From Nocardioides marmorisolisilvae (lineage in GTDB: Bacteria > Actinomycetota > Actinomycetes > Propionibacteriales > Nocardioidaceae): 64,000 nucleotides of DNA. The stretch is from NCBI RefSeq assembly GCF_031656915.1, contig NZ_CP134227.1:1054001-1118000 (forward strand), read 5' to 3'. Shown here one piece after another: positions 4,792 through 58,474 of the stretch (positions are counted from its first letter, which is position 1; every line of letters begins with the position of its first letter). A program made the translations under genes and the position numbers. The notes beneath the pieces were generated by a model that was not told the DNA's origin, made no database searches, and saw only the letters and a program-made list of their open reading frames with translations.

Positions 4792-4828
4792 GGTCACCTA
4801 TGTGCTGTCAGGGCTCCGGTGCGATCAC
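4792..4828 (-). promoter_or_regulatory. Shared transfer-regulon site A (coupling operon)
   Basis: Read on the minus strand this is GTGATCGC, 16 bases, CACATAGG, then TGACC. It ends about 45 bases before the start codon at 4747. The first block overlaps the stop codon of the wall-hydrolase gene. The same two blocks with the same 16-base gap occur at six other operon heads in the window. It may be a promoter with a long spacer (TGA and ATA cores) or a regulator site. Confidence 0.75.
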
Positions 4829-15026: not shown

Positions 15027-15065
15027 GGGTGGACTTCCTTTCTGGGTTTGCTGACTCGGTGCGGG

Positions 15066-15914: not shown

Positions 15915-16132
15915 TGGGCCTCCCCGATGCCGCCGCGGCGGAACTCAAGCGCGGCGCGGACCTCAGCCGGAGTCAGGCTTGCCAGCTGTGCCTTGGCGGC
16001 CTGGACCTCGTGCAGCTGGGCGACGCAGCCGGTGAGCTGCTCGATCGCCTCGGTCTCGCGGCCGGCGATCGCGAACAGCTCGGCAACCTGCTCCGGCGTC
16101 CGGCTCTCGCGGTCGTCCTGGGTGTTCGTCAT
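15911..16132 (-). CDS. Small helical protein, first gene of the T4SS operon
   Basis: I place the start at ATG 16132, preceded by a strong GGAGGTGG ribosome site, giving 73 residues. An in-frame ATG at 16204 would add a basic segment translated through the regulatory site and is less likely. The protein is a single predicted helix-rich unit (TPEQVAELFAIAGRETEAIE, QLHEVQAAKAQLASLTPAEV) with one Cys. No family recognised. It is the leader gene of the T4SS operon, 22 bases after shared site B. Confidence 0.7.
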   Translation of the reverse strand: MTNTQDDRESRTPEQVAELFAIAGRETEAIEQLTGCVAQLHEVQAAKAQLASLTPAEVRAALEFRRGGIGEAQ

Positions 16133-16150
16133 GGGCTTCACCACCTCCAG

Positions 16151-16185
16151 TCGCCTATGTGTCGTGGGGCGGTGGGAGCGATCAC
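16151..16185 (-). promoter_or_regulatory. Shared transfer-regulon site B (T4SS operon)
   Basis: Minus-strand reading: GTGATCGC, 16 bases, CACATAGG, then CGA. The second block ends 22 bases before the ATG at 16132, leaving room only for a ribosome site, so transcription must begin close to or just after this block. It matches site A in all 16 conserved positions and in spacing. Confidence 0.8.
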
Positions 16186-16193
16186 GGTTGCGC

Positions 16194-17147: not shown

Positions 17148-17198
17148 CGCACTCGCTCCCCTTTCGTCCGTGGCTGTGCACGGCAGAAAGGTCGCGAG

Positions 17199-17300
17199 CG
17201 GGCGTCCCCGCATCCGTCCCCCCAAACCCCCGATTTGGAGGGGGGACGCAGAGGAGGGACGCGCGTTTCCGCAGGTCAGAGGGCGTCCCCCCGAAAATTG
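17199..17300. promoter_or_regulatory. GCGTCCCC-type repeats and palindrome between regulator and NACHT gene
   Basis: The 355 bases between the divergent genes starting at 17147 and 17503 contain a palindrome: CGTCCCCCC at 17215-17223 pairs with GGGGGGACG at 17240-17248, and the inner flanks CAAA/TTTGG extend it. The half-site GCGTCCCC recurs nearby on the same strand (about 17201 and 17282). Repeated half-sites in a divergent promoter region suggest an operator, perhaps for the regulator at 16194-17147. No confident promoter box was found. Confidence 0.45.
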
Positions 17301-17502
17301 CAGAAACTTCTTGACCAGGGTGGCGCGGGGCCTATTCGTCGAGATGCGCCGAACGTTTCCAAACGCGACGCCCCTACCTTTCAACACAGAATCGGTAGGG
17401 ATTCGCTCCGCGGCAGCGCCCTGGTGACAGACGGACGGGTGACCGCGCGGGTCGAACCCGCCGTGTCGCTGCGCGTTGCTACCTTGAGCCGTCCGTCGAA
17501 CA

Positions 17503-20346: not shown

Positions 20347-20582
20347 CTTCCTGCCGGACCAAGCGGCCGTCAGGCCACGCTGTGTCGAGGGTGTCGGCGG
20401 CCACGAGAAACTGCCCGGAGACGGCCACGAAGCTGCCCGGTGGCGGACATGAGAACTGCCCACTGACGGTCATGGGATCTGCCCGACACGACGTCGTCTG
20501 CCTCACCGGTTCCCACGGTTGAGGCCCCTCCTCAGGTGCGGTTGGCGGTGCTGATGCGCCGTTCGCCCCTGAGGAGGGACAT

Positions 20583-22118
20583 GTGAAGTCTGCCGAGGAG
20601 ATCATGGAAATCTTGGATGCCTACGACCTGACTGGGTCGTTTCGTGATGCCGGTGAGTTGGCCGGCTGTTCGCACCACACGGTGAAGCACTACGTGGACC
20701 GCCGCGCTGCCGGCGGGGAGCTGGACCAGACCGCAGCCCGGCTGCAGTTGATCGATGAGTACCTGCCCAAGGTCGAGGAGTGGGTCGAGCGGTCGTTCGG
20801 GAAGGTCCGTGCCGATGTCGCCCACGAGAAGCTCGTGGCGTTGGGCTACAAGGGTTCGGAACGCACCACACGCCGCGCGGTCGCTAAAGTCAAGGCGTCC
20901 TATCGCTCTGGTCGGGTGCGGGTGCACCGGCCCTGGGTCACCGAGCCGGGGATGTGGCTGCAGTACGACTACGGCGACGGCCCGGTCGTCGACGGCGTCA
21001 AGACGGTGCTGTTCGTGGCGTGGCTGGCGTGGTCGCGGTTCCGGGTCGTGCTGCCGTTGCGTGACAAGACGATGCCGTCCGTGTTCGCCGCGCTGGACGT
21101 CACGTTCCGCCGACTCGGTGGAGTGCCGACCTACGTGCTGACCGACAACGAGAAGACCGTCACGGTCGAGCACATCGCCGGGATCCCGGTCAGGAACCAG
21201 CAGTTGGTCACCTTCGCCGAGCACTACTCGGTCGTGGTGCACACCTGTGTGCCCGCGGATCCGGCGTCCAAGGGCGGCACCGAGGCGTCGGTGAAGATCA
21301 GCAAGGCCGACCTCGTCCCCAAGGACACCAACCTGCGGGAGGAGTACGCGAGTTTCGCTGAGCTCGAGGCGGCCTGCGAGGCGTTCTGCGAGAAGGTCAA
21401 CACCCGTGCCCACCGGACGACGAAGCGGCCGCCGATCGAGATGCTCGCCGAGGAACGAGCTCGGCTGCACCCCGTTCCGGCGCGAGCGCACACGGTCGCG
21501 TTCGGCACCACCCGCATGGTGCCGGCGAACACCCCGATGGTGATGTTCGAGTCCGGCCAGTACTCGGTCCCACACACCCTGCTCGGTGCAACAGTGTGGG
21601 TCCGCACCCACGGGGTCGGTGAGGACGAGTGGGTCGTCATCGTTCATGTCGGCGACGACGGTCCGATCGAGGTCGCCCGCCACCGTCGCGCCACGCCGGG
21701 AACGCCGAAGATCGATGACGGGCACTTCCCGCCCCAGCCGTCCGGCCCGCTGGACCGCCAGCCCCGAGCGAAGAACGCCGCGGAGTCGGAGTTCCTCGAC
21801 CTGGGTGAGGGGGCCCGGCTGTGGTTGGTCGAGGCGGCTGCCGCGGGCACGCCGCGGATGCGGGTCAAGATGACCGAGGCGCTCGCGTTGGCCAAGTTGT
21901 TCGACCCCGTCGAGGTCGACTGGGCACTGGGCCACGCCGCGGTCCATGGCCGGTTCGCCGAGGCCGACCTCTCTTCGATCCTGGACCACCACGCCCGGCA
22001 GCCCGGCACAGGTGAGCATCGTGCCAGCGAGGACTCCTCGCTGACCCAGGGCACCGCCGCGTGGGCACGGCTCGGCCAGCGGTCCACCGCGGACGGCGAC
22101 GGCGAGGTGACCCGATGA
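20583..22118 (+). CDS. istA: IS21-family transposase IstA
   Basis: This 511-residue transposase has an N-terminal helix-turn-helix (DAGELAGCSHHTVKHYVDRR, about 21-40), a DDE catalytic core with YDYGDGP near residue 124 (first Asp), TDNEKTV near 187 (second Asp), and PASKGGTEASVK near 223 (Glu region), and the IstA-type C-terminal beta domain. Its ATG lies 60 bases inside the last left-end repeat. It overlaps istB by ATGA. The protein appears full length and intact, so the element may be active. Confidence 0.9.
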   Translation: MKSAEEIMEILDAYDLTGSFRDAGELAGCSHHTVKHYVDRRAAGGELDQTAARLQLIDEYLPKVEEWVERSFGKVRADVAHEKLVALGYKGSERTTRRAVAKVKASYRSGRVRVHRPWVTEPGMWLQYDYGDGPVVDGVKTVLFVAWLAWSRFRVVLPLRDKTMPSVFAALDVTFRRLGGVPTYVLTDNEKTVTVEHIAGIPVRNQQLVTFAEHYSVVVHTCVPADPASKGGTEASVKISKADLVPKDTNLREEYASFAELEAACEAFCEKVNTRAHRTTKRPPIEMLAEERARLHPVPARAHTVAFGTTRMVPANTPMVMFESGQYSVPHTLLGATVWVRTHGVGEDEWVVIVHVGDDGPIEVARHRRATPGTPKIDDGHFPPQPSGPLDRQPRAKNAAESEFLDLGEGARLWLVEAAAAGTPRMRVKMTEALALAKLFDPVEVDWALGHAAVHGRFAEADLSSILDHHARQPGTGEHRASEDSSLTQGTAAWARLGQRSTADGDGEVTR

Positions 22119-45155: not shown

Positions 45156-46079
45156 ATGGATCTCGACCCGGGCGGCCGCCAGCTGGCGGGCCTCATCCTC
45201 GACGCGGCTGGCCGAGGCGAACATGACCAGGTCGCCAGCCTGATTGCACCGCTCGATGCAGAGCGGCTGCGCTCGCTGGTGACGGTGCTGGCCGTCCAGG
45301 TCGACCAGAGCGCGCCGGCCTCCTCGGCAACCGGCCCGGCCGCGGTGTGCGAGCTGGCCATCAACGCCGCGGCGCCGATGTTCGGCACGACGCCGGAGGC
45401 GATTCTTAGCGCCGAACGCCGCCGACCAGTCAGCGATGCGCGGGCGGTGGCCATGACGGCCGCCCGCGAGACCGGCCTGTCCCTGCCAGCGATCGCCGAG
45501 CAATTCAACAAGGACCACGGCTCGGTGATCCATGCGGTCCGCCGCACCGCCGAGCGGCCCCGACTGGCCGACGCCGCGGCGCGGGTGAGCGAGCACGTCA
45601 ACAGCCGCTACACCGCCCGTCTCCCCCGCACCGAAGAGAACGTGGTCGACCTCCCCCAGCGGCCGCCCGCCTCGACTTTCGAGCCCGATGGCCCGGTCGA
45701 ACACGCCGTGCTGGCGGCCGCGGAGGCCCTCAACACCACACCCGAGGTCCCCCTGGGTGCCGACCGGAGCCGGGCGGCCGCCGATGCCCGAGCGGTGGCC
45801 ATAACGGCCGCCCGGATCCACGGGCACAGCCTGCCCACGATCGCCCGGCACTTCGAGCGCGACCACACCACGGTGCTGCAAGCCACCCGCCGCATCGAGA
45901 AGACCCCGCCGCTTCGGGACCTGGCCGCCAAGATCGCCGCGGATCTCCCGAGCAGCGGGCCAGCGCCAGCGCCGGCCGGCTCGACGTCGACGATCCCGTG
46001 CCCGAGAGCGGCCACCGCTCCCTCGGGTTGCGCGAGCAGCAGCGGGCGATCCCCGTTGCTGGCGAGCGGCCGCAGCTGA
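45156..46079 (+). CDS. Tandem DnaA domain IV protein without ATPase domain
   Basis: This 307-residue protein contains two copies of the DnaA C-terminal box-binding domain. Copy 1 spans about 61-137 (ARAVAMTAARETGLSLPAIA, with KDHGSVIHAVRR at 119-130). Copy 2 spans about 180-250 (ARAVAITAARIHGHSLPTIA, with RDHTTVLQATRR at 235-246). RDHTT matches the DnaA residues that read the DnaA box. No AAA+ domain, P-loop or DnaB-interaction domain is present. The protein could bind two DnaA boxes as a regulator, initiation competitor or partition factor. It lies in operon D; perfect DnaA boxes occur at 38,776 and 56,511. Domain assignment is firm; function is inference. Confidence 0.85.
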   Translation: MDLDPGGRQLAGLILDAAGRGEHDQVASLIAPLDAERLRSLVTVLAVQVDQSAPASSATGPAAVCELAINAAAPMFGTTPEAILSAERRRPVSDARAVAMTAARETGLSLPAIAEQFNKDHGSVIHAVRRTAERPRLADAAARVSEHVNSRYTARLPRTEENVVDLPQRPPASTFEPDGPVEHAVLAAAEALNTTPEVPLGADRSRAAADARAVAITAARIHGHSLPTIARHFERDHTTVLQATRRIEKTPPLRDLAAKIAADLPSSGPAPAPAGSTSTIPCPRAATAPSGCASSSGRSPLLASGRS

Positions 46080-46089
46080 GGGTGGCCCG

Positions 46090-46299
46090 GTGAAGGCCCT
46101 GATCGGGCTGGCCGCGGCCGCGGTCCTCGCGCTCAGCGCCGGCGGGATCAAGGCCGCGATCCCCGGAGTCCAGTCAGGCCCCGAGTCCGCTGAGGGCAAG
46201 ACCAGCCAGGTGCGCGTGACCGCGGTCGTCGACGGCGACACGATCCGCGTCGAGACGCTAGGAGGCCGCCAGCTCGGCCGAGTTCGGCTGCTCGGCATC
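46090..46299 (+). pseudogene. SNase-like nuclease gene, 5' half
   Basis: A GTG start at 46090, 10 bases after the DnaA-domain gene, opens a signal anchor (about 2-25) and the first part of a staphylococcal-nuclease (thermonuclease) domain: VRVTAVVDGDTIRVE and GRVRLLGI. The reading frame is cut after the ATC codon at 46,297-46,299 by the 7.9-kb mobile element and ends three codons later. The remaining domain is found in frame from 54,249. Together they would make a 174-residue secreted or anchored nuclease-like protein. Confidence 0.8.
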
Positions 46300-46546
46300 A
46301 TTCATTAGTCAAGTCTGGTGTCGGGATTGGACCTGTCGTGCCCCGTGGCAGCGGAACCTGTCGTAGTCGGCACCCGTGGAAACACCGGAACGGAAGGTCC
46401 CGGTACGAGATCGACTTGCCGCCGTGGGTATGTCAGAGGAGGCCCCCGTCCCGGTGACGGAGCCCGGACGGCTCCTACGGGACGTCCGCCGGGTGGTCGG
46501 GCCAGGATGGGCTTCTAGCCTGGGCGTTCACCGTTTGTGGTTCCCG

Positions 46547-47005
46547 TTACGACGCAGTTCGTTGATCTCGTGCATCGGCGGCAGAGGTAGCGGCGGGGTC
46601 CCAGAGCCCTTCGGCCGTGTCGGTGGCCACGTGTTCTTCGTACACGGCGACCTTCCACGTGATCAGGTCCAAGCACTCGGTGAGTGCGTCCAGTTGTGCC
46701 TGCACCCGCGCTTGGTGAGACCGGAGCAGATCGAGGCGCTGGTGCTCGTTGCCGGGACCTTGGCGAACGAGGTCGGCGAACGTCTGCAGGCTGGCCAGCG
46801 GCATGCCCGAGGCGCGCAGCTTGGTGCAGATGGTCAACCAGTCGACGTCGGTCTGCGTGTAGATGCGCCGCCCACCGGACGTGCGCTGCACCGGCGAGAC
46901 CATCAGGTTCTCGCGTTCGTAGAACCGCAGGGCGTGCACGCTCAGGCCTGTGCGGGCGGCGACGCCGCCGATACTGAAACTGTCACTGTCGTGGATCGCT
47001 GGCAT
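46547..47005 (-). CDS. MerR-family regulator
   Basis: This 152-residue protein has the MerR N-terminal winged HTH (SIGGVAARTGLSVHALRFYE, residues ~11-30; GGRRIYTQTDVDWL near 44-57) and a long coiled-coil dimerisation helix (HQARVQAQLDALTECLDLIT). It lacks the conserved Cys cluster of metal sensors, so it is closer to MerR regulators of oxidoreductase genes. It is divergent from the SDR gene with a 53-base gap containing a 19-base-spacer promoter. Confidence 0.88.
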   Translation of the reverse strand: MPAIHDSDSFSIGGVAARTGLSVHALRFYERENLMVSPVQRTSGGRRIYTQTDVDWLTICTKLRASGMPLASLQTFADLVRQGPGNEHQRLDLLRSHQARVQAQLDALTECLDLITWKVAVYEEHVATDTAEGLWDPAATSAADARDQRTAS

Positions 47006-47021
47006 GGTGTCACGGTAGCCC

Positions 47022-47052
47022 TTGACCTAGACCACGCTCTAACTCCTAGCGT
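47022..47052 (+). promoter_or_regulatory. MerR-type promoter of the SDR gene
   Basis: TTGACC (47022-47027) and TAGCGT (47047-47052) are separated by 19 bases, the long spacer typical of MerR-activated promoters. The spacer contains a short dyad (CTAGA / TCTAA). The start codon at 47,059 is only six bases beyond the -10 box, so the message may be leaderless. Confidence 0.65.
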
Positions 47053-47058
47053 GTTGGT

Positions 47059-48030
47059 ATGACAACTCCGCAGCAACCGATCGGATCAGGCTTCGGCTTC
47101 CGCAGCACCACCAATGATGTCCTATCCGGTATCAGTCTCACCGGCAAGACCGCCGTGGTGACCGGCGGCTACTCCGGCCTCGGACTAGAGACCACCCAAG
47201 CGCTGAGCGCGGCCGGCGCGCAGGTGATCGTTCCGGCCCGCAGACCTGACGTGGCGCGCGCCGAGCTGGCCGCCGTACCCGGGGTCAGGGTCGAGCCGAT
47301 GGACCTGGCCGATCTGGACAGCATCTACCGTCTGGCAGACGCACTGCTGGCTATCGGCCGATCGATCGACTTTCTCATCGGGGCCGGTGGGGTGATGGCA
47401 AGCCCGGAGACCCGCGTTGGCCCTGGCTGGGAGGGCCAGTTCGCGATCAACCACCTCGGCCACTTCGCGTTGACCAACGAGTTGTGGCCAGCGCTGGTCG
47501 CAGGCCGGGCGCGCGTCATCTCCTATTCCTCGGCAGGTCATCACCTGTCGGGCATCCGCTGGGACGACGTGCAGTTCGACACCGGCTACGACAAGTGGCT
47601 GGCCTACGGGCAGTCCAAGACCGCGAATGCGCTATTTGCCGTGCACCTCGACGCCCTTGGTCGGGAGCACGGCGTGCGGGCGTTCTCGCTGCATCCGGGA
47701 TCGATCCTGACCCCGTTGCAACGCCACATGAGCCACGACGAGCTGACCGACCGCGGCTGGGTCGACGCCGCCGGCAACCCCGCGGACCCAACTTTCAAGA
47801 CCCTGGCGCAAGGCGCCGCGACAGGCGTATGGGCAGCGACCTCACCTGGGCTGTCCGGACTCGGCGGGGTGTACTGCGAGGACTGCGACATCGCCACCAT
47901 CGCCGACCCGGTCGGGCCGATGGACTCCGGCGGAGTCCGCGACTATGCCATCGACCCCGGTCAAGCTGCCCGACTCTGGCGGCTGTCCTCCGAGCTCACC
48001 GGACTCGACACCGTCCCAACAACCGCGTGA
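47059..48030 (+). CDS. Short-chain dehydrogenase/reductase
   Basis: This 323-residue protein is a classical SDR: cofactor motif TGGYSGLG near 34-41, the NNAG-equivalent IGAGGV near 111, catalytic Ser in ISYSSAGHH (about 155) and the YxxxK motif YGQSK (about 178-182). It is similar to oxidoreductases of the retinol-dehydrogenase/WWOX-like group that act on unknown aldehydes or ketones. Controlled by the divergent MerR regulator. It is cargo of the 7.9-kb element and may give protection against a reactive compound; that is inference. Confidence 0.88.
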   Translation: MTTPQQPIGSGFGFRSTTNDVLSGISLTGKTAVVTGGYSGLGLETTQALSAAGAQVIVPARRPDVARAELAAVPGVRVEPMDLADLDSIYRLADALLAIGRSIDFLIGAGGVMASPETRVGPGWEGQFAINHLGHFALTNELWPALVAGRARVISYSSAGHHLSGIRWDDVQFDTGYDKWLAYGQSKTANALFAVHLDALGREHGVRAFSLHPGSILTPLQRHMSHDELTDRGWVDAAGNPADPTFKTLAQGAATGVWAATSPGLSGLGGVYCEDCDIATIADPVGPMDSGGVRDYAIDPGQAARLWRLSSELTGLDTVPTTA

Positions 48031-48229
48031 CAGCGCTCATCCATCGCCGGCCCAAGATGTGCCGCTGGCCGATCGCTTTCCGGGACGCAGCCCACACATT
48101 CGGCTCGGGTGGTTGGAGCCGGTGGGCTGCCTGGCCCTGTCTGCCCGTTCGGCGCGCTGATCCAGCGGGTGCACCGCGACCTGCATGGCACAGCCGGTCG
48201 CGGGGCGAATCCCCTCAGGGTCTAGCGCG

Positions 48230-48652
48230 CTAGGCCGACGAATGCGCGCCGATATGTGGTACCTGTCGGAGCGAGGCGAGTTCTTCGCGTGCTTGGTGGA
48301 GTTCGAGGGACAGTTCGCCGACGATCTTGGTCAGCGTCTTGGTGGTCTCGCGTTCTTCGGCGAGCTGCGTGTTGAGAGCATCGTTTTCGTTCTTGAGCGC
48401 GCGGTTCTCGTCGGCGATTCGTGTGGTCGAGTTGGGCGTGGCGTGCTGGGCTTTGACGCGGGCCTTGAAGTCGTCGACGAGGTTCTTGTGGTCGCCGTAG
48501 ACGACGTCACGTCGTAGCCCGGACTCGGTGATCAGCTGTGTGCTGGTGAGTTTGCCGGTGGTCGACCTCAGCGGGGTGCCGGCCAGGAGTCGTTCCGCGG
48601 CGGCGGCCAGGTCGCGGCGCTCGGCATCGAGGTCGCGTCGCCTGCGGGTCAT
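48230..48652 (-). CDS. DUF6262-type accessory protein of the recombinase trio
   Basis: This 140-residue protein has a basic N-terminal helix-turn-helix-like region (KLTSTQLITESGLRRDVVYG) and a coiled coil (ADENRALKNENDALNTQLAE). It matches DUF6262, the TnpC-like partner found after recombinase trios. It overlaps the preceding recombinase by ATGA. TnpC of Tn554 affects orientation and efficiency of transposition; the same role is plausible here. Confidence 0.8.
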   Translation of the reverse strand: MTRRRRDLDAERRDLAAAAERLLAGTPLRSTTGKLTSTQLITESGLRRDVVYGDHKNLVDDFKARVKAQHATPNSTTRIADENRALKNENDALNTQLAEERETTKTLTKIVGELSLELHQAREELASLRQVPHIGAHSSA

Positions 48653-50772
48653 CGTGTGCGTCCTTCTTTGGGCGGTGTCTGGTGTCGTGTGAGGACGCCG
48701 CGGATCTGCTCGGCTTGGGCGCGTGCGCGGTCGCGCAGCGGGGCCGGCGCCATCGGCTCGTCGGCGGCATCATTGAGGACGTTGAGGCGTTCGCGCAGGC
48801 GAGTGATGTCGCGGTCGGTGTAGGCCAGGTTGACGCACCCGGCCTGGCATTCCGCCTCGAGCGGGCCGTCGACGATCGGCAGCCCTTGGGCTTGTCGGCT
48901 GGTGCGGCAGGCGGCGGTCTCGGCCCGGTATACGCAGGTCATCCCGTCGCCGTGGTGGATGCTGCGGTCGGCGTGTTGCAGGATGCGTTCGACGTTGCGG
49001 ACGCGGTTGACGACCCGCCCGGCGAACCTGTGGGTGGATGCGACTCGGTCGCGATAGTGGGTGGCGGCGGGGCCGCTGACGTGTTCGCCGCCGGCCAACA
49101 AGGCGTGGTCGTGCTGGTTGTGCTCAATGATGGCCTCCAGGCGTTCGACGGCCAGGTCGTCGAGCCATCCGGTGTCGGCCTTGCCGCTGTAGCTGAGGGT
49201 GACGGTGGTGGACACGTGCCCGTATTGCAGTGCCGCGGCGATCAGGCCGCGGGGGCGGCGCACGATGAAGTAGGCCAGGGTGCGCCGAAACCGGGTCGGG
49301 TAGATCCGACCGGCCGGATCAGGGGGGATTGCGGCGTGGCCGTCGAGCCGGTGGAAGCTGGCGTTGACCCAGGCGATGAAGTTTTCCAGGTCGCGGGTCA
49401 CTTCGCCGTTTCGGCGGGCGTGCCGCTCGGCGGGCCGGATCGCGTGCGGCTTGTGGAGGCTGGACGGGAACAGGAAGGGTGCGTCGGTCAGCTGCTCGAG
49501 CAGGGTGATGGCCTGGTGGACGGGGCGCACCACGACCCAGGTGCGTTTCCAGGGATCGTCACCGAGGGTGGGGCGTGGGGTGCGGGCCGGCCCCTTGCCG
49601 TAGCGGCCGGCTACCAGTAGCTGACCGGTCGTCTCGTCCTGGCAGGTGCAGCCGCGGCGTAGGTTGAGGACCTCGCCGGGTCGCATGCCCGACAGGTAGC
49701 TGATGACGACGAAGCAGGCCGCGGACAGGTGAGAGATCAGGGCGGGGAGTTCTTGTGTCGTCAGGGGCCGTTCGCGCCACGGGCGGCCGTCAATGAGTCC
49801 GGTGATGGTGCCCACGGGTGAGCCATCGGCGACATGTAGGCCGCTGTCGAGGATGACGGGTTGCAGGCTGGGCGGTACTTGACGCTGGGGCAGGCGCAGC
49901 ATCCTGGCGAGGTGGCTCCAGTTGATCCGTGGTTGCGCCTGCGGGTTACTGCTGGGGTGTCCGGGCAGGGCGCGGTCCTGCGCGGATGCGTCGGCGGCGA
50001 AGGCTTCGAGTCGTTGCCGGGAGGACAACCCGTCCAGGGTCACCTGGCTGGGGTGGGTGCCGGCCTCGAGCTGGTCCAGCTCGGCGCGCGCTGCCACGAT
50101 GTCGGGGCCGATCACCTCGACCATGCGCAGACTCCAGTCCAGTAGGGCCTCCATGGTGGCCGGGGCGACGCGTGGGGTCGTGTTCTCCGCGCCCGCCGGT
50201 CGGCAGGGCGCATTTGCCAGCCGGGATGGGGGCGCACCGCCCCAGGGGTTGTGGGTGTCCAGTCGGCAGTGCGGCGGAAGGCGCGCTCGGTACTCCCAGA
50301 CGGTGCGGACCGCGACGAATAGGTCGCGCTTGCGGCGGTTGCTGGTCTCCAGCCGGAGCACGTGCTGGCGGTAGCGTTCCAGCTGCTGGTCGGTGACCTC
50401 GTGCAGGCTGGGCAGTTGTTGCTGGCTCATCCAGGCCGCGAACACGCGCAGCGTGCACAGCCGGAATGCCAGGGTGCCGATGCTCATCAGGTCCCCGTCG
50501 CTGGTGAGGGTGACGCTGCGCGGAGTGGGGTGTTCCAGGAAGGCCAGGGTGACGTTCTTGAACACTTCGACCAGCTCGGTGGGCCAGCGGTCCCATTGGA
50601 TCGCGTTGATCTTGGCGTGCGCGTCGGGATGGGCGGGGGCCAGGTGCCAGACTGCGTCCTCGAAGCGGGACAGCTTGCCCGGCGGGGTGCCGGGACGCAC
50701 GGTGCGGTGGCGCAGGATCGGTGCCCCGACACGGTTCCGGTCGCCCTCGTCGCTGATCAGTGCAGGTCCCAT
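48649..50772 (-). CDS. Tyrosine recombinase, third of the trio
   Basis: This 707-residue protein starts at ATG 50772, overlapping the previous gene by 16 bases. The catalytic domain has SGMRPGEVLNLRRG (Arg I), RIYPTRFRRTLAYFIVRRPR (helix with box II-like Arg), LQYGHVSTTVTLSYSG (His and the probable nucleophile Tyr). A Cys-rich C-terminal segment (TCVYRAETAACRTSRQAQGL and CQAGCVNLAYTD) is typical of TnpB-like members. Much of the first 350 residues is an unrecognised N-terminal domain. Confidence 0.85.
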   Translation of the reverse strand: MGPALISDEGDRNRVGAPILRHRTVRPGTPPGKLSRFEDAVWHLAPAHPDAHAKINAIQWDRWPTELVEVFKNVTLAFLEHPTPRSVTLTSDGDLMSIGTLAFRLCTLRVFAAWMSQQQLPSLHEVTDQQLERYRQHVLRLETSNRRKRDLFVAVRTVWEYRARLPPHCRLDTHNPWGGAPPSRLANAPCRPAGAENTTPRVAPATMEALLDWSLRMVEVIGPDIVAARAELDQLEAGTHPSQVTLDGLSSRQRLEAFAADASAQDRALPGHPSSNPQAQPRINWSHLARMLRLPQRQVPPSLQPVILDSGLHVADGSPVGTITGLIDGRPWRERPLTTQELPALISHLSAACFVVISYLSGMRPGEVLNLRRGCTCQDETTGQLLVAGRYGKGPARTPRPTLGDDPWKRTWVVVRPVHQAITLLEQLTDAPFLFPSSLHKPHAIRPAERHARRNGEVTRDLENFIAWVNASFHRLDGHAAIPPDPAGRIYPTRFRRTLAYFIVRRPRGLIAAALQYGHVSTTVTLSYSGKADTGWLDDLAVERLEAIIEHNQHDHALLAGGEHVSGPAATHYRDRVASTHRFAGRVVNRVRNVERILQHADRSIHHGDGMTCVYRAETAACRTSRQAQGLPIVDGPLEAECQAGCVNLAYTDRDITRLRERLNVLNDAADEPMAPAPLRDRARAQAEQIRGVLTRHQTPPKEGRTR

Positions 50773-52610
50773 TGGCCCTCCAGGAGGTCGCTGATGCGTT
50801 GGCGGTGCCCGTCGGTGATCCTGGCCCTGGCGTGGTCGATTTCGGCGGGCTGGAAGCCGGCGGTGATGTCGCGCAGCTGGCCCAGGCGGGGTGCGTACCG
50901 GCGCGCCCACAGGGCCGGGGGCAGGTGTGGACGCATCTGCTCCAGTGCGTCGATCGCGGCCAGCTGGATCGGTAGCTGGTGCGGCAGAGCGCGGGCGTTG
51001 GCGCAGTCCAGGCAGGCCAGGAACGACGCCGAGCAGGCGGCCCCGGGCGGGTCGTACGGGCTGGCCCGGTGGTCTTGGCAGGACGCCAGAACGGTGTCCC
51101 GACCGCCCTCGATCAGCCCGGCCAACTGCCTCATGCTCATGTCGGCCTGGCTGGCGGCGGCCTGTGGGTCGCGTCGGGCGAGGTCTAGGAAGTTCTGGGT
51201 GAAGACCGGCACCCGAGCATGGTCGCGGGCCTTGCTCACCTCGTCGTCCAGGGCGGCAGCGACGACGGCGTGGGACTCGGCCTGGACGGTGGGGTGGGGC
51301 ATCAGGTAGGTATCGCGCATGGTGGTCGCGGTGTGCGCCACGGGGCGACGGCGCCGCTCGATCGCGGTCAGCCGCAGCGTCCTCACCGAGACCACCGGCT
51401 TCCCGGCAGGGACCGCGAGGGTGGCGGTGGGGAAGCTGCGGGCGGCGGCCCACCGCTGCACATGCTGGCTGGTCAGCGTGGTGATCCACGGGCTTGGAGT
51501 ATGAACGGTCTTCTTGGCGATCCGGCCGGTGAAGAGTCCCTGGCTGTTGCTCAGGCGGCGGGCGGTGTCGCCGAGGTCGAGCAGCATCCGGTACACCCTC
51601 AGTGGCGACCGGGACCACCGGTGTTCTCTGTCGCCGCCGGTGATGAGGTCTTCCAGCGCGATGACCATGTGTTCCCGGTCGGGTCCGCGGCGTGGCTTGC
51701 ACGCCTCGACCAGTGCCAGGCCCTCGTCGGTCAGCCCGCCGTCGGGACGGAAGTGCGCGGCCGGCCAGGTGACGATCGTGCCGTAGTTCTGCCCGGTCAA
51801 CGCGACAAGGAGCAGCGCGAACGCGGCCAGTTCGTCCGGGGACGGGCACAGCATGCCGGCGACCTTGACCAGTCCGCCGCACCGTTGCACGTCCGGCGTG
51901 CCGTTCGTGTCGACCCTGCGGGGCAGTTGGCCGGTGCGTTCGAAGCCATCCAACAACCGACCGAGTGTGACGTCCTCGCTGCCCGCTGGAAGCTCTCCGG
52001 CCCGATACCGGACCAGGAGCCGCCGCGCGGCGTGGATCCGGTCCCGGGCCGCCCGCACGTCATGTCGAACGGCGGTCAAGATCTCCTGCCATTCGGCCTC
52101 GGTGTAGCCCCGCTTGCTGATGTCGCCCCGGCCCATCCCGCGTACCCGGATCGCCGCCAACCCGGCCCTCGCCTGGGGGCTGAGACGCTCGTCGTCGCGC
52201 AGCAAACGTCGCAGGTTCTCGACGTAGCCGCTCACGGTTCGTGGTTTCAGGTGCTCGTAGCGGCGCCGGAAGGCCAGCAAGTGCTCGGCGACGACGTCTT
52301 CTGGCTGCCGGACCGGGACCGGGTGCTCGGACAGCACGACCGCGAAATGGCGGGCCGTGTCCACCAGTGACCTGGCGGTGGGCAATCGTTTCACCGTCGA
52401 ACGGGTGGTGACCTGGCGGGCGACCCGGCCGGCCAGCCACCGGCGGATCGGCTCGGCCACCGGCAGGTCGGTGAACTCGAACAGCGTGCTGCGCCCACTG
52501 GTCTCGTCGAGGAACAGCACACTTTGACCATCGGCTCCCAGTCGTGGCCGCGGCGCCCACCCGGCCGGTGGCAGGGCTGCGGGTTGTCCTCCCCCCACGC
52601 GGTCGCTCAC
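50757..52610 (-). CDS. Tyrosine recombinase, second of the trio
   Basis: This 617-residue protein begins with GTG in a GTGA overlap with the first recombinase. It has a SAM-like N-terminal domain (about 90-165) and a divergent catalytic region with LLVALTGQNYGTIVTWPAAH and VSVRTLRLTAIERRRRPVAH. The usual first Arg is not clear, so it may be a non-catalytic or divergent subunit. A Cys-containing C-terminal region has GAACSASFLACLDCANARAL. Confidence 0.8.
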   Translation of the reverse strand: MSDRVGGGQPAALPPAGWAPRPRLGADGQSVLFLDETSGRSTLFEFTDLPVAEPIRRWLAGRVARQVTTRSTVKRLPTARSLVDTARHFAVVLSEHPVPVRQPEDVVAEHLLAFRRRYEHLKPRTVSGYVENLRRLLRDDERLSPQARAGLAAIRVRGMGRGDISKRGYTEAEWQEILTAVRHDVRAARDRIHAARRLLVRYRAGELPAGSEDVTLGRLLDGFERTGQLPRRVDTNGTPDVQRCGGLVKVAGMLCPSPDELAAFALLLVALTGQNYGTIVTWPAAHFRPDGGLTDEGLALVEACKPRRGPDREHMVIALEDLITGGDREHRWSRSPLRVYRMLLDLGDTARRLSNSQGLFTGRIAKKTVHTPSPWITTLTSQHVQRWAAARSFPTATLAVPAGKPVVSVRTLRLTAIERRRRPVAHTATTMRDTYLMPHPTVQAESHAVVAAALDDEVSKARDHARVPVFTQNFLDLARRDPQAAASQADMSMRQLAGLIEGGRDTVLASCQDHRASPYDPPGAACSASFLACLDCANARALPHQLPIQLAAIDALEQMRPHLPPALWARRYAPRLGQLRDITAGFQPAEIDHARARITDGHRQRISDLLEGQWDLH

Positions 52611-54181
52611 CGAGACACCACCCCGGTGAGGGTGATCGGCTGCACCGTGCGCCCGCCTTCGCGGGCAAGGGTACGCAGCAACGCATCGACTCCGGCGGTC
52701 TCCCCCTCGTCCAACAGGGCCATCAAGTAGTCGACCTCAAGCCCGGCGAATGGTTCGAGGTAGATGTCTCGCGTGGTCATCGGGTGGGCGTGGCCCATCA
52801 GCGTGGCCAGCTGGTACCAGATGTCACCCAGCTGGTCGCGCAGGTCACGCGTCTCCTCCTCGGACAGGCCCGTGACCCGGGTCCGCCAGACCGCCGAGAA
52901 GATCGAGTACCACTTGAGGCAGAACGAGTGCCGCAGCATGTGCGGCCGCGCCCACAACGGGCACTGGTCCGCGTCCACCCCGTCACCGACGGTCTCGGCC
53001 CACACGCGGGCGATGCGGTGATTGGCGTGATCGAAGGTGTCTTCCCACCCGTAGGGCTTCTTCGGCAACCCATTCGGGGCGAGCCACAGCCACAACGGCG
53101 CCAGCCCGTCCGGGGTGCGTCGGAACAAACGGCGTCGCTCGTCCGGGCCGAGCACGTCCACCGAGACGGGCACCGGCCCGCCCGGGTCCTCGATCAGCAG
53201 CCGCTGACTGTGCGCGCGGTAGCCGGTCACGACCCGGACGCCGGGCAACTGCTGGTAGCGGCCGGCCCGCTGTGCCCGTCGGACGACCTCAGCCCGGGAG
53301 CCCGCCACCGGGTCGGTGTAGGCGGCTACCGCGTGCAGCACGCTTCGCGGGATCCGATACGTCCGGCCGGCCTTGGCGCCCTTGAGACATGCCGCCGACA
53401 GGTGCGCCGGCGCGAACCGGGCCGCGCCCGGTGCGGGGATCTCGAGGTCGAGGACGCTGGCCCACTCCGCCAACCGCAGGCCCGTCCCGTACAGGCCATC
53501 GACGAACGCCGCATCCCGGTCCTCATTGATGCCGCGCCAGCCAGGGCGGCGCAGCCCGTCGAAGCCGTAGCCACACAGCCCGATGTTGCGCCACTGCTCG
53601 AACGCCGACCGCAGCATCCACTTGACCTGCCGCCGCGTTGAGCCAGCGGGCCGCAAGGGATCCCGGCCACCCGGTCGGCGGCGCAGCGCCTCTTCGGGCG
53701 GCGCAACGCTGCGTCGCGGGCCCATGCCGGCGGTAGCGACCGGATTGGCCACGCCGTACCGCTGGCCGGCCCACGAATAGAAGCTGTTCAATGCCGACCG
53801 GTCCGTGTCGAAGCTCGTCGGCTGCACCCGCTTGGCATTGTCCAGCGACGTCAGCCGCCACTCCTTGAATGCTCCCACGTCTCTCGCCGTCGCGTCCGTC
53901 CAGCCGCGGCCGACCACGTGTAGGTAGTCCAGCCACACCACCAGGGCGTAGGCGTACCGGCGCCACGTTCCGGGGCGGGCCTCGGCCATCGGCCCGGTGC
54001 GGAAGAACAGATTGACCCGCGGGTCAGGCCACCCGCCCGGGCCGATCAACACCGGGGTCCCGTGCCGGGCACCATTGGCAGCAGCGCGGGCGTGCACCTC
54101 CCCGAAACCCGACAAACACTCAGCGTCAGGCGTGGTCACGGACGCCGTGAAGTCGTAGAACGTCACCGTCCACCCTTCCAT
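52607..54181 (-). CDS. Tyrosine recombinase, first of the trio
   Basis: This 524-residue protein starts at ATG 54181 in preference to a TTG at 54193. It has an N-terminal SAM-like domain, first Arg in LYGTGLRLAEWASVLDLEI, box II WARPHMLRHSFCLKWYSIFS, TLMGHAHPMTTRDIYLEP with His and the catalytic Tyr. All key residues are visible, so it is the likeliest strand-exchange enzyme of the trio. Its start lies about 67 bases inside the right end of the element. Confidence 0.87.
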   Translation of the reverse strand: MEGWTVTFYDFTASVTTPDAECLSGFGEVHARAAANGARHGTPVLIGPGGWPDPRVNLFFRTGPMAEARPGTWRRYAYALVVWLDYLHVVGRGWTDATARDVGAFKEWRLTSLDNAKRVQPTSFDTDRSALNSFYSWAGQRYGVANPVATAGMGPRRSVAPPEEALRRRPGGRDPLRPAGSTRRQVKWMLRSAFEQWRNIGLCGYGFDGLRRPGWRGINEDRDAAFVDGLYGTGLRLAEWASVLDLEIPAPGAARFAPAHLSAACLKGAKAGRTYRIPRSVLHAVAAYTDPVAGSRAEVVRRAQRAGRYQQLPGVRVVTGYRAHSQRLLIEDPGGPVPVSVDVLGPDERRRLFRRTPDGLAPLWLWLAPNGLPKKPYGWEDTFDHANHRIARVWAETVGDGVDADQCPLWARPHMLRHSFCLKWYSIFSAVWRTRVTGLSEEETRDLRDQLGDIWYQLATLMGHAHPMTTRDIYLEPFAGLEVDYLMALLDEGETAGVDALLRTLAREGGRTVQPITLTGVVSR

Positions 54182-54248
54182 CCCAGCAGACAAACGCTCT
54201 CTCCAAGCAGGTCGTGACCGACGACTCTGAATAGCCTAGAGAAGGATC

Positions 54249-54563
54249 GACGCTCCCGAAGTCGCTCATCCGCTGGAGCCGTCCGAGTGCTACGCCGCGG
54301 ACGCCACGCGCCTGCTCGAGCGACTCGCGCCGGTCGGCAGCACCGTCGACCTGGTCACCGACACCGCCCAGCCCAGCCGTGACCGCTACGACCGGCTGCT
54401 GCGCTACGTCGACCACGATGCCGTCGACGTAGCCCGCGAGCTCCTGGCCAGCGGCGCCGCCCGCCGCTACGAAGCAGACCAGGCGCTTGCCCGCGAGGAG
54501 TCGTACGCCGGCGCCGTCGACGACGCCCAGGGCGCTGAGCGCGGCCTGTGGGGAAGCTGCTGA
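54249..54563 (+). pseudogene. SNase-like nuclease gene, 3' half
   Basis: From 54,249 the frame reads DAPEVAHPLEPSECYAADAT, then DTAQPSRDRYDRLLRYVD, then VARELLASGAARRYEADQAL and ends RGLWGSC at 54,563. These are the conserved features of the second half of thermonuclease domains: ECY, the DRYxRxLxYV strand and the RGLW tail. There is no start codon, so the half is silent unless the mobile element excises or the gene is read through. Confidence 0.8.
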
Positions 54564-55028: not shown

Positions 55029-55079
55029 AAGGAGGACTGGCGCAGCCGGTGCCGGTCCACGGGATCCATGGGAGTTCAC

Positions 55080-55295
55080 ATGAGTGAAGCCGCTCGCGAG
55101 GAAGAGGCCCGTCAGCGCGCCGAGGAGATCAGGGCGACTGAGGAGGCCGCCGCCCAGGCCGCGGCCGCCGACACCGGCCCCTCCCCCGACGCCGAGATCA
55201 CGCAGGTCCACCGTTCCGGTCGCCAGCACGACCACACCGACACGGCCGCCTACCAGCGGCCCCAGATCGGCCGCCGCCGCGGCCCGCGCCGCTAG
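55080..55295 (+). CDS. Small charged protein, 71 residues
   Basis: Starts at ATG 55080 after GGGAG; reads MSEAAREEEARQRAEEIRAT, a charged Ala/Glu helix, then a disordered His/Arg-rich half ending RRRGPRR. It is the first gene after site E. The composition suggests a helical or disordered adaptor. No family recognised. Confidence 0.6.
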   Translation: MSEAAREEEARQRAEEIRATEEAAAQAAAADTGPSPDAEITQVHRSGRQHDHTDTAAYQRPQIGRRRGPRR

Positions 55296-55304
55296 GAGGT
55301 CGTG

Positions 55305-55481
55305 ATGGCAACCGCGCTCGCATCAGCGGACGTCAGTCACGTCCCCGGCCGCACAACGGTCCGCTGGGTCGACTGCTCCCACAAGCTGGGTTCGCTGCCG
55401 TGCATGAACCACAAGCCGCACGAGGGCAACGGCCGCGGCTGCGTGCACCACTCCACCTCCGGCTTCCAGGACGACGAGTAG
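55305..55481 (+). CDS. Small Cys/His-rich protein, 58 residues
   Basis: An AGGAGGT ribosome site (55294-55300) precedes ATG 55305. The protein reads TTVRWVDCSHKLGSLPCMNH, then KPHEGNGRGCVHHSTSGFQD. Three Cys and several His in a short chain (DCSH, PCMNHKPH, GCVHH) suggest a zinc-binding fold. It is the second gene of operon E. Its excellent ribosome site supports it as a real gene despite its size. Confidence 0.65.
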   Translation: MATALASADVSHVPGRTTVRWVDCSHKLGSLPCMNHKPHEGNGRGCVHHSTSGFQDDE

Positions 55482-55511
55482 CTCGCGGACCTGCAGCGCC
55501 GGAGAGTGTGC

Positions 55512-56384
55512 CTAGCCGTGGACCAGGTGCAGCCGCGGCCGCGCCGGCTGCTCGACGGCCGCCTCCAGGAGCTGCAGCCGCTCGAGCGTCATCGGATTGC
55601 CATGACGCCGGAGCAGGCCAGCCAGCACGGAGCCGAGCCCCAGGGAGACCACCAGCTGGTCGGCCGCGGCCTCCGCGCTGGCCTCGATCCGGCGGCTGGC
55701 CGCCGGCACCAGGTAGGTCAGGAGGATCACCGCGCCGCCCAGGATCCCCGGAGCGGGCCGGCCCTCAACGACCGACTGCACGATGCAGATCACTCCGACG
55801 ACACCTCGCAGCGTCCACGCCAGCCGCACGAACGGAAGCCAGGCGAACGCCCGGGCCACGCCGCGGAACGACGCGACCACCAGCCGCCACGGCGTCGTCG
55901 ACGCAAGCACCGCGAGCTCGAGCCGCGGGCGGATCGCACGCCGCCGGCCGACGGCATGAGCCATCGCGGAGGCCGCCTCCGCGTCGGTCACCCCTCCGCG
56001 GTAAGTGGCGTCGACCAGGCCGGGGCTGACCACGACAGCGCCATCTGCGATCGCCATAGCCACCAGGGTGCTCGGACCCTGACGCCGGCGTACGAACAGG
56101 GCGCCGACGTCGACACCGCGGACACCCAGCTCGGCGAGCACAGGCCCCATCACCTGGAGCTCAGCCGCAGTCGCAGGCCGCGACCCGGTCAGCGCTGCGG
56201 TCGCCGACACCTCGAACCGGCCGAGCGCCAGCGCAACGAGCACGCCCGCTGCAGCCAGGAACGCGATCAGGCCGAGCGCCGGCGGGAGCACGGCGCACAC
56301 CACCACGGTGAGGACGAAGCTCACCAGCACCGCCGGCGCCAGCGTCACCACTCTCAGCACGGTCATCGGGAACCTCCTCATCAC
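55512..56384 (-). CDS. M48-like membrane protein lacking the zinc motif
   Basis: This 290-residue protein has the outline of an M48 peptidase: two N-terminal helices (about 14-55), a domain ending MAHAVGRRRAIRP where active relatives have HExxH (here HAVGR at 143-147), two further helices (about 185-225), and RIEASAEAAADQLVVSLGLG in place of the third-ligand region. The zinc His pair and catalytic Glu are gone, so it should be inactive: a pseudoenzyme, perhaps a partner or inhibitor of the active M48 at 392-1195. It is divergent from site F operon. Confidence 0.75.
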   Translation of the reverse strand: MMRRFPMTVLRVVTLAPAVLVSFVLTVVVCAVLPPALGLIAFLAAAGVLVALALGRFEVSATAALTGSRPATAAELQVMGPVLAELGVRGVDVGALFVRRRQGPSTLVAMAIADGAVVVSPGLVDATYRGGVTDAEAASAMAHAVGRRRAIRPRLELAVLASTTPWRLVVASFRGVARAFAWLPFVRLAWTLRGVVGVICIVQSVVEGRPAPGILGGAVILLTYLVPAASRRIEASAEAAADQLVVSLGLGSVLAGLLRRHGNPMTLERLQLLEAAVEQPARPRLHLVHG

Positions 56385-56435
56385 GACCCTCCTCCATCTG
56401 TCAGCACTAGTGCGAATCTCTTGACTTTATCCGTG

Positions 56436-56472
56436 GTGATCGTCCGGCGACCGCCATACGACATAGGCGAAC
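56436..56472 (+). promoter_or_regulatory. Shared transfer-regulon site F
   Basis: Plus-strand reading: GTGATCGT, 16 bases, GACATAGG, then CGAAC. Fourteen of 16 block positions match the consensus, identical spacing. It ends about 127 bases before GTG 56599, the longest leader of the set, and the leader contains a DnaA box. Confidence 0.7.
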
Positions 56473-56510
56473 GAGACCAGTTTGTGCCCAGCCGCCGACA
56501 CGACCCCGAG

Positions 56511-56519
56511 TTATCCACA
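56511..56519 (+). promoter_or_regulatory. Perfect DnaA box between site F and its operon
   Basis: TTATCCACA, a perfect match to the DnaA box consensus, lies 39 bases after site F and 80 bases before the GTG at 56,599. It could be read by the DnaA-domain protein of the element or by host DnaA. Confidence 0.6.
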
Positions 56520-56598
56520 GCCCGCCGCGCAGCGGAGCGAGGACCGACCCGGACGTGGGTTCATGGGCCAGACCGACCTCCGACCGAAAGGAACACCC

Positions 56599-56961
56599 GT
56601 GGACACCCTCAACGCTGACGGCACTTGGGACCGCCTCGGCTCGATCGCCCTCCTGCTGCACCAGGCCGCCACCCAGGTATGGAGCGACGCCGACCGGTCT
56701 GCCGCCGACTCGCCACTGCACGACCTCGGCCTCGGTGTCTACCTCGCGCACTCCCGGGCCAGCGCCCTGCTGCCCCAGGACTACGAGCTGCCCGACGTCG
56801 AGGTCGACGAGCTCGAGGAGCGCACCCCGCTGCAGCTACTCACCGAGGCCGAGGGGTTGACCCGGCCCCTGCCGTTGCACCGGCCCGACCTGGTTCACGG
56901 CTCCCAGCTGGTCGTCGACCTGTGCGACCTCATCCGAGAAGCACGCGGCCTTGGCTACTGA
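56599..56961 (+). CDS. Unknown protein, 120 residues, operon F
   Basis: Starts at GTG 56599 behind AAAGGA. The protein has SIALLLHQAATQVWSDADRS, LHDLGLGVYLAHSRASALLP, and acidic VDELEERTPLQLLTEAEGLT, ending LCDLIREARGLGY. It is compact and helical. No family recognised. Overlaps the start of the next gene by 11 bases, so they are likely coexpressed. Confidence 0.65.
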   Translation: MDTLNADGTWDRLGSIALLLHQAATQVWSDADRSAADSPLHDLGLGVYLAHSRASALLPQDYELPDVEVDELEERTPLQLLTEAEGLTRPLPLHRPDLVHGSQLVVDLCDLIREARGLGY

Positions 56962-58474
56962 CCTGCGGGTGGCGTACGCCGACATCGACCAGGAGCTCTT
57001 CGACATCGACCAGATCCCGGTGACCTCGCGCGACGTGCGCAGCGTCGGCGAGATGCTCTTCGACGTCGACTACCTGGCGCGCCAACTCCTGATGGATGTT
57101 GACGGAGACGCCGCCGGCACGCTGCTGCGCAGCTGGCCGACGATGGTCGCGGCCGCCGAGGACCTGTGGGCATCCCTGCCCGGTCGACGCCCCGGCATCG
57201 ACGAGCGCGACCGTCCCATCACCACCCTCTCCGCCCAAGCCGCCACCATCGAGACCAGCCTCTCCGGCCGCACCGCCTGGCCAGGGCAGGGCCCGACCAG
57301 CCCCCGCATCGACCAGATGACCCAGACGTTCCTCAACGCCGCCGCGCTGGTCCGCCGCTACGGTGCCGAGATCCCCCACGCACAGCCCGACGCTCACCGC
57401 GACCTCGAGGCCGCGCGCACCCGGATCATGCACGGGCTCTACCTCACCGCCCACGCCGTCAACGTCGCGCTCCACGAGCACGGCCGCGACCGCCTCAACG
57501 ACGCCCGCGGCTCCGGGCACCGGATCCAGCTGGCGCAGCACCACTCTCCCTACGCGATCGCCCCCACGGGCGCCTGGATCGACAGGATCTCCGCGTGCGA
57601 GAACACCGCCCGCAGCTACCTAAGCGACCGGTTCGCCCAAGCCCTCGCCGGCGAGGCGATGCGGCCCGTCGACGACCCCAGCCGGCTCGCGCAAGCGCTG
57701 GCCCACTGGGACATCCAGACCCACCGCGCGCTGGCCCGAGATCTCGAACCGTCCAACATCCTGCTGATCACCCGCACCCAAGGCCTGATCGCCGGCGCGA
57801 GCATGGTCCTCATCGACGCGGCCGCGGCCGCAGGCGTGCTCGAGCGCTCCGAGCGCCTGGTCCCCGCCATCGCCGAGGCAGGACGCTCCTGGAGCAATCT
57901 GGCCAGCCGCTGGGGCGACCTCGCTCCCCCAGGAGCCCGCCTCGAGGAGCGGCTGGCACGCGCGGCCGCGGAGGTCCGCGCCGCCTACCGCCAGATCACC
58001 CACAACAAGACCACCCTGGCCAGTCCCGAGGTCATCGCCGGCCGCCCAGGACTCCCCCAAGCAGTTCTCGCCACGCTGCGCGCGATCGAGGCCGGCTCCG
58101 AGCTCGCAGTTGTCGTCGCCGAGAAGGCCGACGAGGACCTCGTCGGCCCGGCCCGCGCCCTGTCCCGTCGAGCGCACAACGACGTCGAGGCCGGCCTGGC
58201 CACCCCGCCGGCCGAGGGCGACGTCGTCTGGGTCTCCCCCGCCGACATCCTCAACAAGCGCCTCGTGCCACTCCCCCCGCCCGTCGCGGAGACCCTGCGC
58301 GCGGCCAGCGACGCCACGATCGACGCCACCAGCTCGGCCTCCGCAGTGATTATGGTGCACACACCGAGCATGGAACCAGTCCCGGCCAGGGTGAATACGC
58401 ATCAAAGCCCGGCCGGGCGAAATGAAGTGACACCGCTCACCGCCGGTATCCCAGCCAAGAGTCGTGGCCGGTGA
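56951..58474 (+). CDS. Large helical protein of unknown function, operon F
   Basis: This frame of 507 residues starts at a TTG (56951) or a nearby GTG. It is nearly all helical with several Asp/His-containing segments (DIDQELFDIDQIPVTSRDVR, RIMHGLYLTAHAVNVALHEH, LARDLEPSNILLITRTQGLI). The middle third contains a hydrophobic stretch (ASMVLIDAAAAAGV) that is not clearly a membrane helix. The last 50 residues are low-complexity and end close to the IS pile. Such proteins occur as hypotheticals in actinobacterial conjugative elements. The function is unknown. Confidence 0.65.
   Translation: MATDLRVAYADIDQELFDIDQIPVTSRDVRSVGEMLFDVDYLARQLLMDVDGDAAGTLLRSWPTMVAAAEDLWASLPGRRPGIDERDRPITTLSAQAATIETSLSGRTAWPGQGPTSPRIDQMTQTFLNAAALVRRYGAEIPHAQPDAHRDLEAARTRIMHGLYLTAHAVNVALHEHGRDRLNDARGSGHRIQLAQHHSPYAIAPTGAWIDRISACENTARSYLSDRFAQALAGEAMRPVDDPSRLAQALAHWDIQTHRALARDLEPSNILLITRTQGLIAGASMVLIDAAAAAGVLERSERLVPAIAEAGRSWSNLASRWGDLAPPGARLEERLARAAAEVRAAYRQITHNKTTLASPEVIAGRPGLPQAVLATLRAIEAGSELAVVVAEKADEDLVGPARALSRRAHNDVEAGLATPPAEGDVVWVSPADILNKRLVPLPPPVAETLRAASDATIDATSSASAVIMVHTPSMEPVPARVNTHQSPAGRNEVTPLTAGIPAKSRGR

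Follow-up and report, generated by a model that had tools for sequence, protein, structure and literature searches.

A probable site-specific tyrosine-recombinase transposon interrupting an SNase gene on an integrated element of Nocardioides marmorisolisilvae

In a 64,000-nucleotide stretch of the Nocardioides marmorisolisilvae genome (positions 1,054,001 to 1,118,000 of contig NZ_CP134227.1, assembly GCF_031656915.1; hereafter the window), a gene for a staphylococcal nuclease-like protein (SNase) is split by a 7,943-bp insertion. It is probably a transposon with site-specific tyrosine recombinases, of the same kind as Tn554, the strand-biased circularizing integrative elements (SEs) and the GInts. 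The host genome belongs to the Nocardioidaceae, and the interrupted SNase gene is probably part of an integrated element carrying conjugation-type genes. The insertion has four recombination genes, of which the one for the recombinase IntA lies next to one end, cargo beside the far end, conserved ends and six variable core bases at each end. Below, compared genomes are labelled G and loci L, each with a number; G000 is the window's own genome and G288 that of Nocardioides sp. JS614.

The interrupted SNase gene and the ends of the insertion

The preliminary description of the window had read two half-genes on either side of a 7.9-kb recombinase element as one SNase gene. The 5' half (46090-46299) terminates with ...RVRLLGI, its last codon lying at 46297-46299, and the 3' half restarts in register at 54249 with DAPEVAHP, continuing through ECY, DRYDRLLRYV and RGLW to a stop codon at 54561-54563; the thermonuclease motifs of the rejoined gene are as had been described. 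The Pfam family PF00565 was matched by the 3' half alone (Table 1), with the 5' motifs standing ahead of the split. A Pfam search with the 5' half alone gave no match, and its NCBIfam thermonuclease match was weak (E 1.6e-4, far under the cut-off of the model), while an intact orthologue matched staphylococcal nuclease with E 2.4e-8. Among the 30 loci listed as homologues, all 24 uninterrupted members of the window's SNase family (the first family) read from LLGI into DAPE or EAPE without a break, and the remaining six were three split copies and three other SNases. Because the intact homologues read through the junction and the closest of them, L031, matches both halves, the two halves derive from one gene. 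The search for uninterrupted homologues that had been suggested thus revealed the same junction and corresponding halves. The probability that unrelated half-genes merely appear joinable through an assembly or annotation artefact is negligible: we found no point in its support, whereas the genome is a single contig (4.23 Mb), both halves are closest to the same intact gene and the same junction occurs in other genomes.

The view that the operon once ran through the insertion point was likewise borne out by the neighbouring genes. A homologue of the open reading frame (ORF) at 55068 follows the SNase gene in 15/15 uninterrupted loci fetched, and a gene with DnaA-C domains precedes it in 14 of them. 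When the 3' half was searched against 294 genomes of the family, 31 first-family genes were found at ≥65% identity, counting two rows of G278 as one gene. Three of these genes (G000, G047 and G153) are split, all by the same element, and the window's own genome has the split gene once.

The ends of the element, placed to within a few bases in the preliminary description, could be sharpened to two 6-bp cores (Table 1). Six variable bases separate each element end from the target. This length is fixed by intact orthologues of the APH gene targeted in L067 (K. papulosa plasmid), which in seven plasmid loci read GATTTCC-AGCTCC-GCAAC, the core being exactly AGCTCC in four, AGCTCA in two and AGCGTC in one. 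The IntA-side end reads inward TTCTCTAGGCT...GTTGTCGG in most relatives, the consensus of the far end is TTCATTAG[G/T]CAA...TGTCGG, and when the two element ends of the window are compared inward, 8 of the first 12 bases and 11 of the first 20 are the same. The gene had also been called exactly rejoinable, which overstates the case, as positions 2 and 6 are not the same in both cores; what stands is that the frame stays intact either way, the rejoined codon being GAC (Asp) with one core and AAC (Asn) with the other. A rejoined gene could have Asp or Asn at the position that aligns with residue 40 of staphylococcal nuclease, which we take to be part of the active site.

Table 1. Coordinates of the element, the split gene and the neighbouring features in the window
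Feature	Coordinates	Strand	Evidence or remark
Element proper, 7,943 bp	46301..54243		Ends conserved among related elements
IntA-distal (left) core GCATCA	46295..46300	+	Last base A at this place in 0/23 scored first-family intact genes
IntA-proximal (right) core GGATCG	54244..54249	+	Same six bases in closest intact gene L031
IntA-distal end, TTCATTAGTCAAGTC...TGTCGGGATTG...	46301..46338	+	Same end in G047, G153, G289, G228, L064, L066, L067, G784
IntA-proximal end, inward TTCTCTAGGCTATTCAGAGTCGTCGG	54213..54243	-	Conserved among relatives
SNase gene, 5' part	46090..46294	+	GTG start assumed; DGDT and RVRLLG motif; 94.6% DNA identity to intact L031
SNase gene, 3' part up to stop codon	54250..54563	+	PF00565 E 1.5e-10 (54249 onward); 92.0% DNA identity to L031
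IntA, tyrosine recombinase, 528 amino acids (aa)	52607..54193	-	R, K, H, R, H, Y; Phage_int_SAM_1 E 1.1e-6
Second protein, degenerate tyrosine recombinase (Tfp/GinC-like), 617 aa	50757..52610	-	First Arg replaced; resemblance by fold model
IntB, large tyrosine recombinase, 707 aa (ATG at 50772)	48649..50772	-	R370, R503, H525, Y534 (query numbering); PHROGs integrase E 2e-5
Small fourth protein (140 aa) of coiled-coil-like type, in TnpC/Srap/GinD position	48230..48652	-	52-58% identity in four relatives
Cargo: short-chain dehydrogenase (SDR), 323 aa	47059..48030	+	NF004845 above cut-off, E 3.4e-148; PF00106
Cargo: MerR-family regulator, 152 aa	46547..47005	-	PF13411 E 4.7e-17
Upstream operon gene with DnaA-C domains	45156..46079	+	PF08299 E 1.5e-27
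Downstream syntenic genes 55068, 55512 (on -), 56482, 56951	55068..58474	+	Synteny comparison

Recombination genes, close copies and target sites

Each of the four recombination genes has an uninterrupted reading frame. The residues R, K, H, R, H and Y of IntA were present in 9/9 aligned rows, and R, R, H and Y of IntB in 6/6 rows in each of two alignments (the IntB queries spanned 48649-50790). In the second protein, the position to which the first Arg was assigned by motif holds N in ten rows and E in one row of 11. Its predicted model (mean pLDDT 78.9, pTM 0.47) aligned with lambda integrase over 235 residues (Z 12.3, rmsd 3.6), and a plain Foldseek search with the same model was weaker (best E 0.017, XerH); as modelled, the protein resembles tyrosine recombinases, and with its first Arg replaced it would be a degenerate, non-catalytic one. 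NCBIfam gave XerC-like partial matches for IntA and no match for the second protein, IntB or the small protein, for which the Pfam and NCBIfam searches yielded no confident family. For IntA and IntB, the only PHROGs match was to the broad integrase family, and an IntA profile searched against the sequences of the PDB matched none. A phage origin was considered and set aside, as IntA had no tblastn match in 50,697 phage records.

Relatives of the second and third genes follow IntA in all 13 named genome loci listed (out of at least 13 loci); the small gene was detected in six of the 13, and the element end motif only in L069. Outside Actinomycetota, the array of three recombinase genes occurs in L076 (a Chloroflexi metagenome-assembled genome) and L081 (Chelativorans). 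In two relatives, both on Rhodococcus plasmids, the ends enclose 6,222 and 6,252 bp and no annotated cargo gene. The Streptomyces sp. CdTB01 plasmid (L068) carries at 13925-21460, a few kb from the first array and in the opposite orientation, a second integrase/hypothetical/integrase trio with a small gene.

Six close copies of the element were found (G000, G047, G153, G289, G228 and G288), with IntA 86-92% identical; the IntA pieces of the broken G288 copy stood at 91% and 82%. The SNase 3' half adjoins the IntA-side end in all six and the 5' half lies at the far end in five, that of G228 being on another contig. Three copies reside in the first SNase family (G000, G047 and G153) and three in a second family, the 3' half of which is about 40% identical to that of the first. 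Since all six, in two SNase families, sit at the same codons, namely G-I-D/S of RLLGI[D/S]APE, the SNase motif is very probably the attachment site of the element. Searches across the order (293 genomes) and the class (394 genomes) found, apart from the window and G153, only more distant relatives, and a Nocardioides-only search of 215 genomes produced no new close copy. The JS614 copy, on NC_008697 (pNOCA01), is broken inside IntA into parts at 89.7-90.8 kb and 215.5-220.5 kb, about 125 kb apart, and a search for its far end did not find it. On the same plasmid, the larger of the IntA pieces continues into an ORF that is annotated as DrmB, and the other has a DrmC gene next to it.

More distant members interrupt other enzymes: an APH gene at HGDxxxxN (L067 and L137; L068 by sequence), the Nudix box (L065; L069 by reading), the CxxxCxxC motif of a radical-SAM gene (G784) and a gene annotated as a methyltransferase (L066). 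Target names other than SNase come from record annotation or from motif reading, and L064, G340, G716 and several others are left out of this listing. The remote L028 (IntA 31-34%) adjoins a gene that, read by eye, is presumably a penicillin acylase. In G716 (L099) the far-end candidate has four mismatches, and, as in no other copy, its core is the near core in reverse complement; the end is either false or part of an inverted arrangement, and G716 was left out of the core test.

Core bases, movement and mobile context

The cores appear to preserve part of the history of each copy. We scored 34 of 47 loci, dropping 13 outside the motif; L142 and L156 repeat L059 and L057. The 23 scored first-family genes have GCATCG, GGATCG or GAATCG at the core, second-family GIS genes have GGATCA (L059, L140, L143) or GCATCA (L144), and the GIN gene L057 has GCATCA. 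In second-family genes, the element of G228 shows GCATCA at both ends, and that of G289 has two different cores, GGATCA at the IntA end and GAATCG at the other. Because the left core of the window ends in A on the element side, and because its recombination module groups with three second-family residents, these bases indicate that the window copy would previously have resided in a second-family (A-type) SNase gene. The G289 copy seems to have moved the opposite way, from a first-family to a second-family gene, as the final G of its far core would have come from the former. Both origins would hold under any strand rule. The FastTree tree of the module placed the window, JS614, G289 and G228 apart from G047/G153 with support 1.0, and within the four there was no resolved order.

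Mobility appears to have been recent, because the element of G047 matches that of G153 at 12,352/12,352 bases (3348-15699 of L022 in G047 and the matching part of G153:C48), while their SNase flanks are only 78-80% alike (594/739 and 170/219 identical). Their far cargo differs (15,277 and 28,967 bp).

As to the mode of movement, the rule stated for SEs, and also for Tn554, is that the 6 bp of the target stay on the IntA side and those of the donor on the far side (PMC10214605), and a similar bias is given for Tn552-II (PMC12486829). Four copies have informative core pairs (L067, the window, G289 and G784), and three of these agree with the rule, two weakly; equal cores, found in 5/9 of the surely two-ended copies, are uninformative. 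L067 fits the rule clearly, as its IntA-side core is the intact AGCTCC and even the base that adjoins the target is foreign in its other core. L137, read at its IntA end alone, shows the AGCTCA that two intact orthologues also have. The window, the closest intact gene of which reads GGATCG, also fits, as does G289, but in both a crossover inside the shared ATC fits too. G784 has GCTGCG and ACTGCT, against intact ACTGCG in 6/7 homologues of the ERCNLHC type and TGTGCC in a divergent eighth; the radical-SAM homologues gave no decision between the strand models.

These cores bear on whether the element instead moves by conventional cut-and-paste, with a crossover inside the core resolved as a GInt-like heteroduplex and with precise, unregulated excision at low frequency. 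We regard this as a serious possibility, if somewhat short of likely. An internal crossover would account for the G784 cores and is compatible with those of the window and G289, and GInt circles show such mixed cores (PMC5385486). It would not give the combination seen in L067, and the gene order here is SE-like, not GInt-like. Strand-biased copying is a leading, though unproven, option.

Under the transposon reading, the recombinases would use the SNase codon stretch as attB, the element would form a circle carrying 6 bp of its last site, and integration would leave the carried 6 bp at one junction. The nuclease would be broken as a by-product; it would stay broken if movement is strand-biased copying and be restored only if true excision occurs. 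The preliminary description had raised a nuclease that could be switched back on, and a regulated switch, in which the insertion leaves cleanly, now seems very improbable to us. Either core preserves the reading frame across the junction, and the four recombination genes are open; however, the cores differ at two of six bases, and the insertion is sporadic and not a built-in switch because 28/31 first-family genes lack it. Moreover, the same element also occurs in unrelated SNase genes, relatives interrupt other enzymes, and the elements closest in layout are reported with no or only occasional empty sites: recombination of the two SE ends is described as giving none (PMC10214605), and GInts as giving one in only some strains (PMC5385486).

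The window contains conjugation-type genes (TraG/VirD4, TrbL/VirB6 and an M23 protein) and also an integrase. Pimelobacter simplex and Nocardioides sp. QY071 have plasmids of 110.7-110.9 kb with the same backbone, and pNOCA01 is typed conjugative. With SNase genes on plasmids and conjugative elements as targets, the element could travel, and hitch-hiking on mobile DNA via the SNase target is plausible; landing in conserved nuclease codons of other mobile DNA would be a simple route for it. Such insertions also explain truncated SNase, APH or Nudix genes next to rows of 'integrase / hypothetical' genes. Among the conjugation-type genes, a 1,051-aa ORF at 4825-7980 on the minus strand combines an endonuclease/exonuclease/phosphatase domain with an M23 peptidase domain.

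Several observations weigh against the transposon reading or parts of it. Only six close copies are known, and the uninterrupted state prevails among first-family genes. G047 possibly reflects recombination through the element or a mis-joined contig, because, in this 150-contig genome, one SNase half is nearest to L052 (96.6%) and the other to L034 (89.7%), two different lineages. PLSDB types the ~110.8-kb backbone plasmids as non-mobilizable. The cores give mixed evidence on the strand rule, with G784 fitting a crossover inside the core better and the window and G289 fitting either. Neither excision nor a circle nor transposition has been observed. Finally, hhalign matches to SE proteins were weak for IntA (E 8.3e-4, Prob 24) and IntB (E 8e-5, Prob 61), in the catalytic part, and absent for the second protein (Prob 0.2) and the small protein (Prob 0.7).

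More broadly, and tentatively, Actinobacteria might have their own branch of strand-biased copy-out/copy-in transposons, with subfamilies that each home to the catalytic-motif codons of one enzyme family (SNase, APH, Nudix or radical SAM), often on plasmids or conjugative elements, and that copy out without leaving, carrying a 6-bp label of the last address. If so, the SNase would be permanently disabled, with no switch, and jumps between gene families and replicons could be read from sequence, because each copy would carry that label.

Comparison with known systems

In layout, the element is closest to the SEs (SE-6283 and SE-6945; PMC10214605, PMC9345347). These have the same order of intA, a non-catalytic Tfp, a large intB and a small srap, with catalytic IntA and IntB, and the proteins of SE-6945 on pSEA1 measure 408, 581, 720 and 135 aa against 528, 617, 707 and 140 aa here. 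A 6-bp core at each junction is common to both, and the target lies inside a gene (bcp for SE-6283, the SNase motif here); SE terminal repeats are described as imperfect, inverted and 13-19 bp long. The present element differs in being actinobacterial and in targeting an SNase motif.

GInts, compared by their published description (PMC5385486), likewise combine three integrase-type genes and one small gene, followed by cargo, and have imperfect repeats, 6-nt staggered cores and one integrase without the first arginine. That degenerate integrase is the third there (GinC) and the second here, where the third has R, R, H and Y, and the reported GInt targets are the end of an ABC-transporter gene, ssb and others. 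Tn554 and related actinobacterial transposons (PMC3414803) resemble the element in pairing a very long recombinase with a shorter one, in a small partner protein like TnpC and in 6-bp cores; however, tnpA, tnpB and tnpC include no third recombinase, whereas here a degenerate recombinase stands between IntA and IntB and the small fourth gene comes after. The same 2012 paper lists pNOCA01 among Tn554-related actinobacterial transposons with two recombinases, giving no TnpC for it; pNOCA01 holds a copy of the present element, and the listed pair may or may not be that copy. RITs also have three recombinase-type genes in a row, but their proteins are of 315-410 aa, all with the catalytic Tyr, and their terminal repeats of 34 bp (PMC10214605, PMC8138268); the present proteins are longer and the second lacks the first Arg. 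Membership in GInt, Tn554 and RIT was set aside, as each misses a tested feature.

These sources report SEs from Gammaproteobacteria and Tn554 proper from Firmicutes; to the actinobacterial relatives of Tn554 they ascribe only two or three genes. Searches of the open-licence PMC literature turned up no report of a transposon with SNase as its target. To the known systems the present element adds a degenerate recombinase in second place, a fourth gene for a small protein, ends and cores placed to the base, empty sites and a target in the SNase motif. As a four-gene actinobacterial relative with precisely placed ends, naturally empty sites, readable 6-bp labels and two targets that can stand in for each other, it makes the question of copying versus cutting testable in another phylum.

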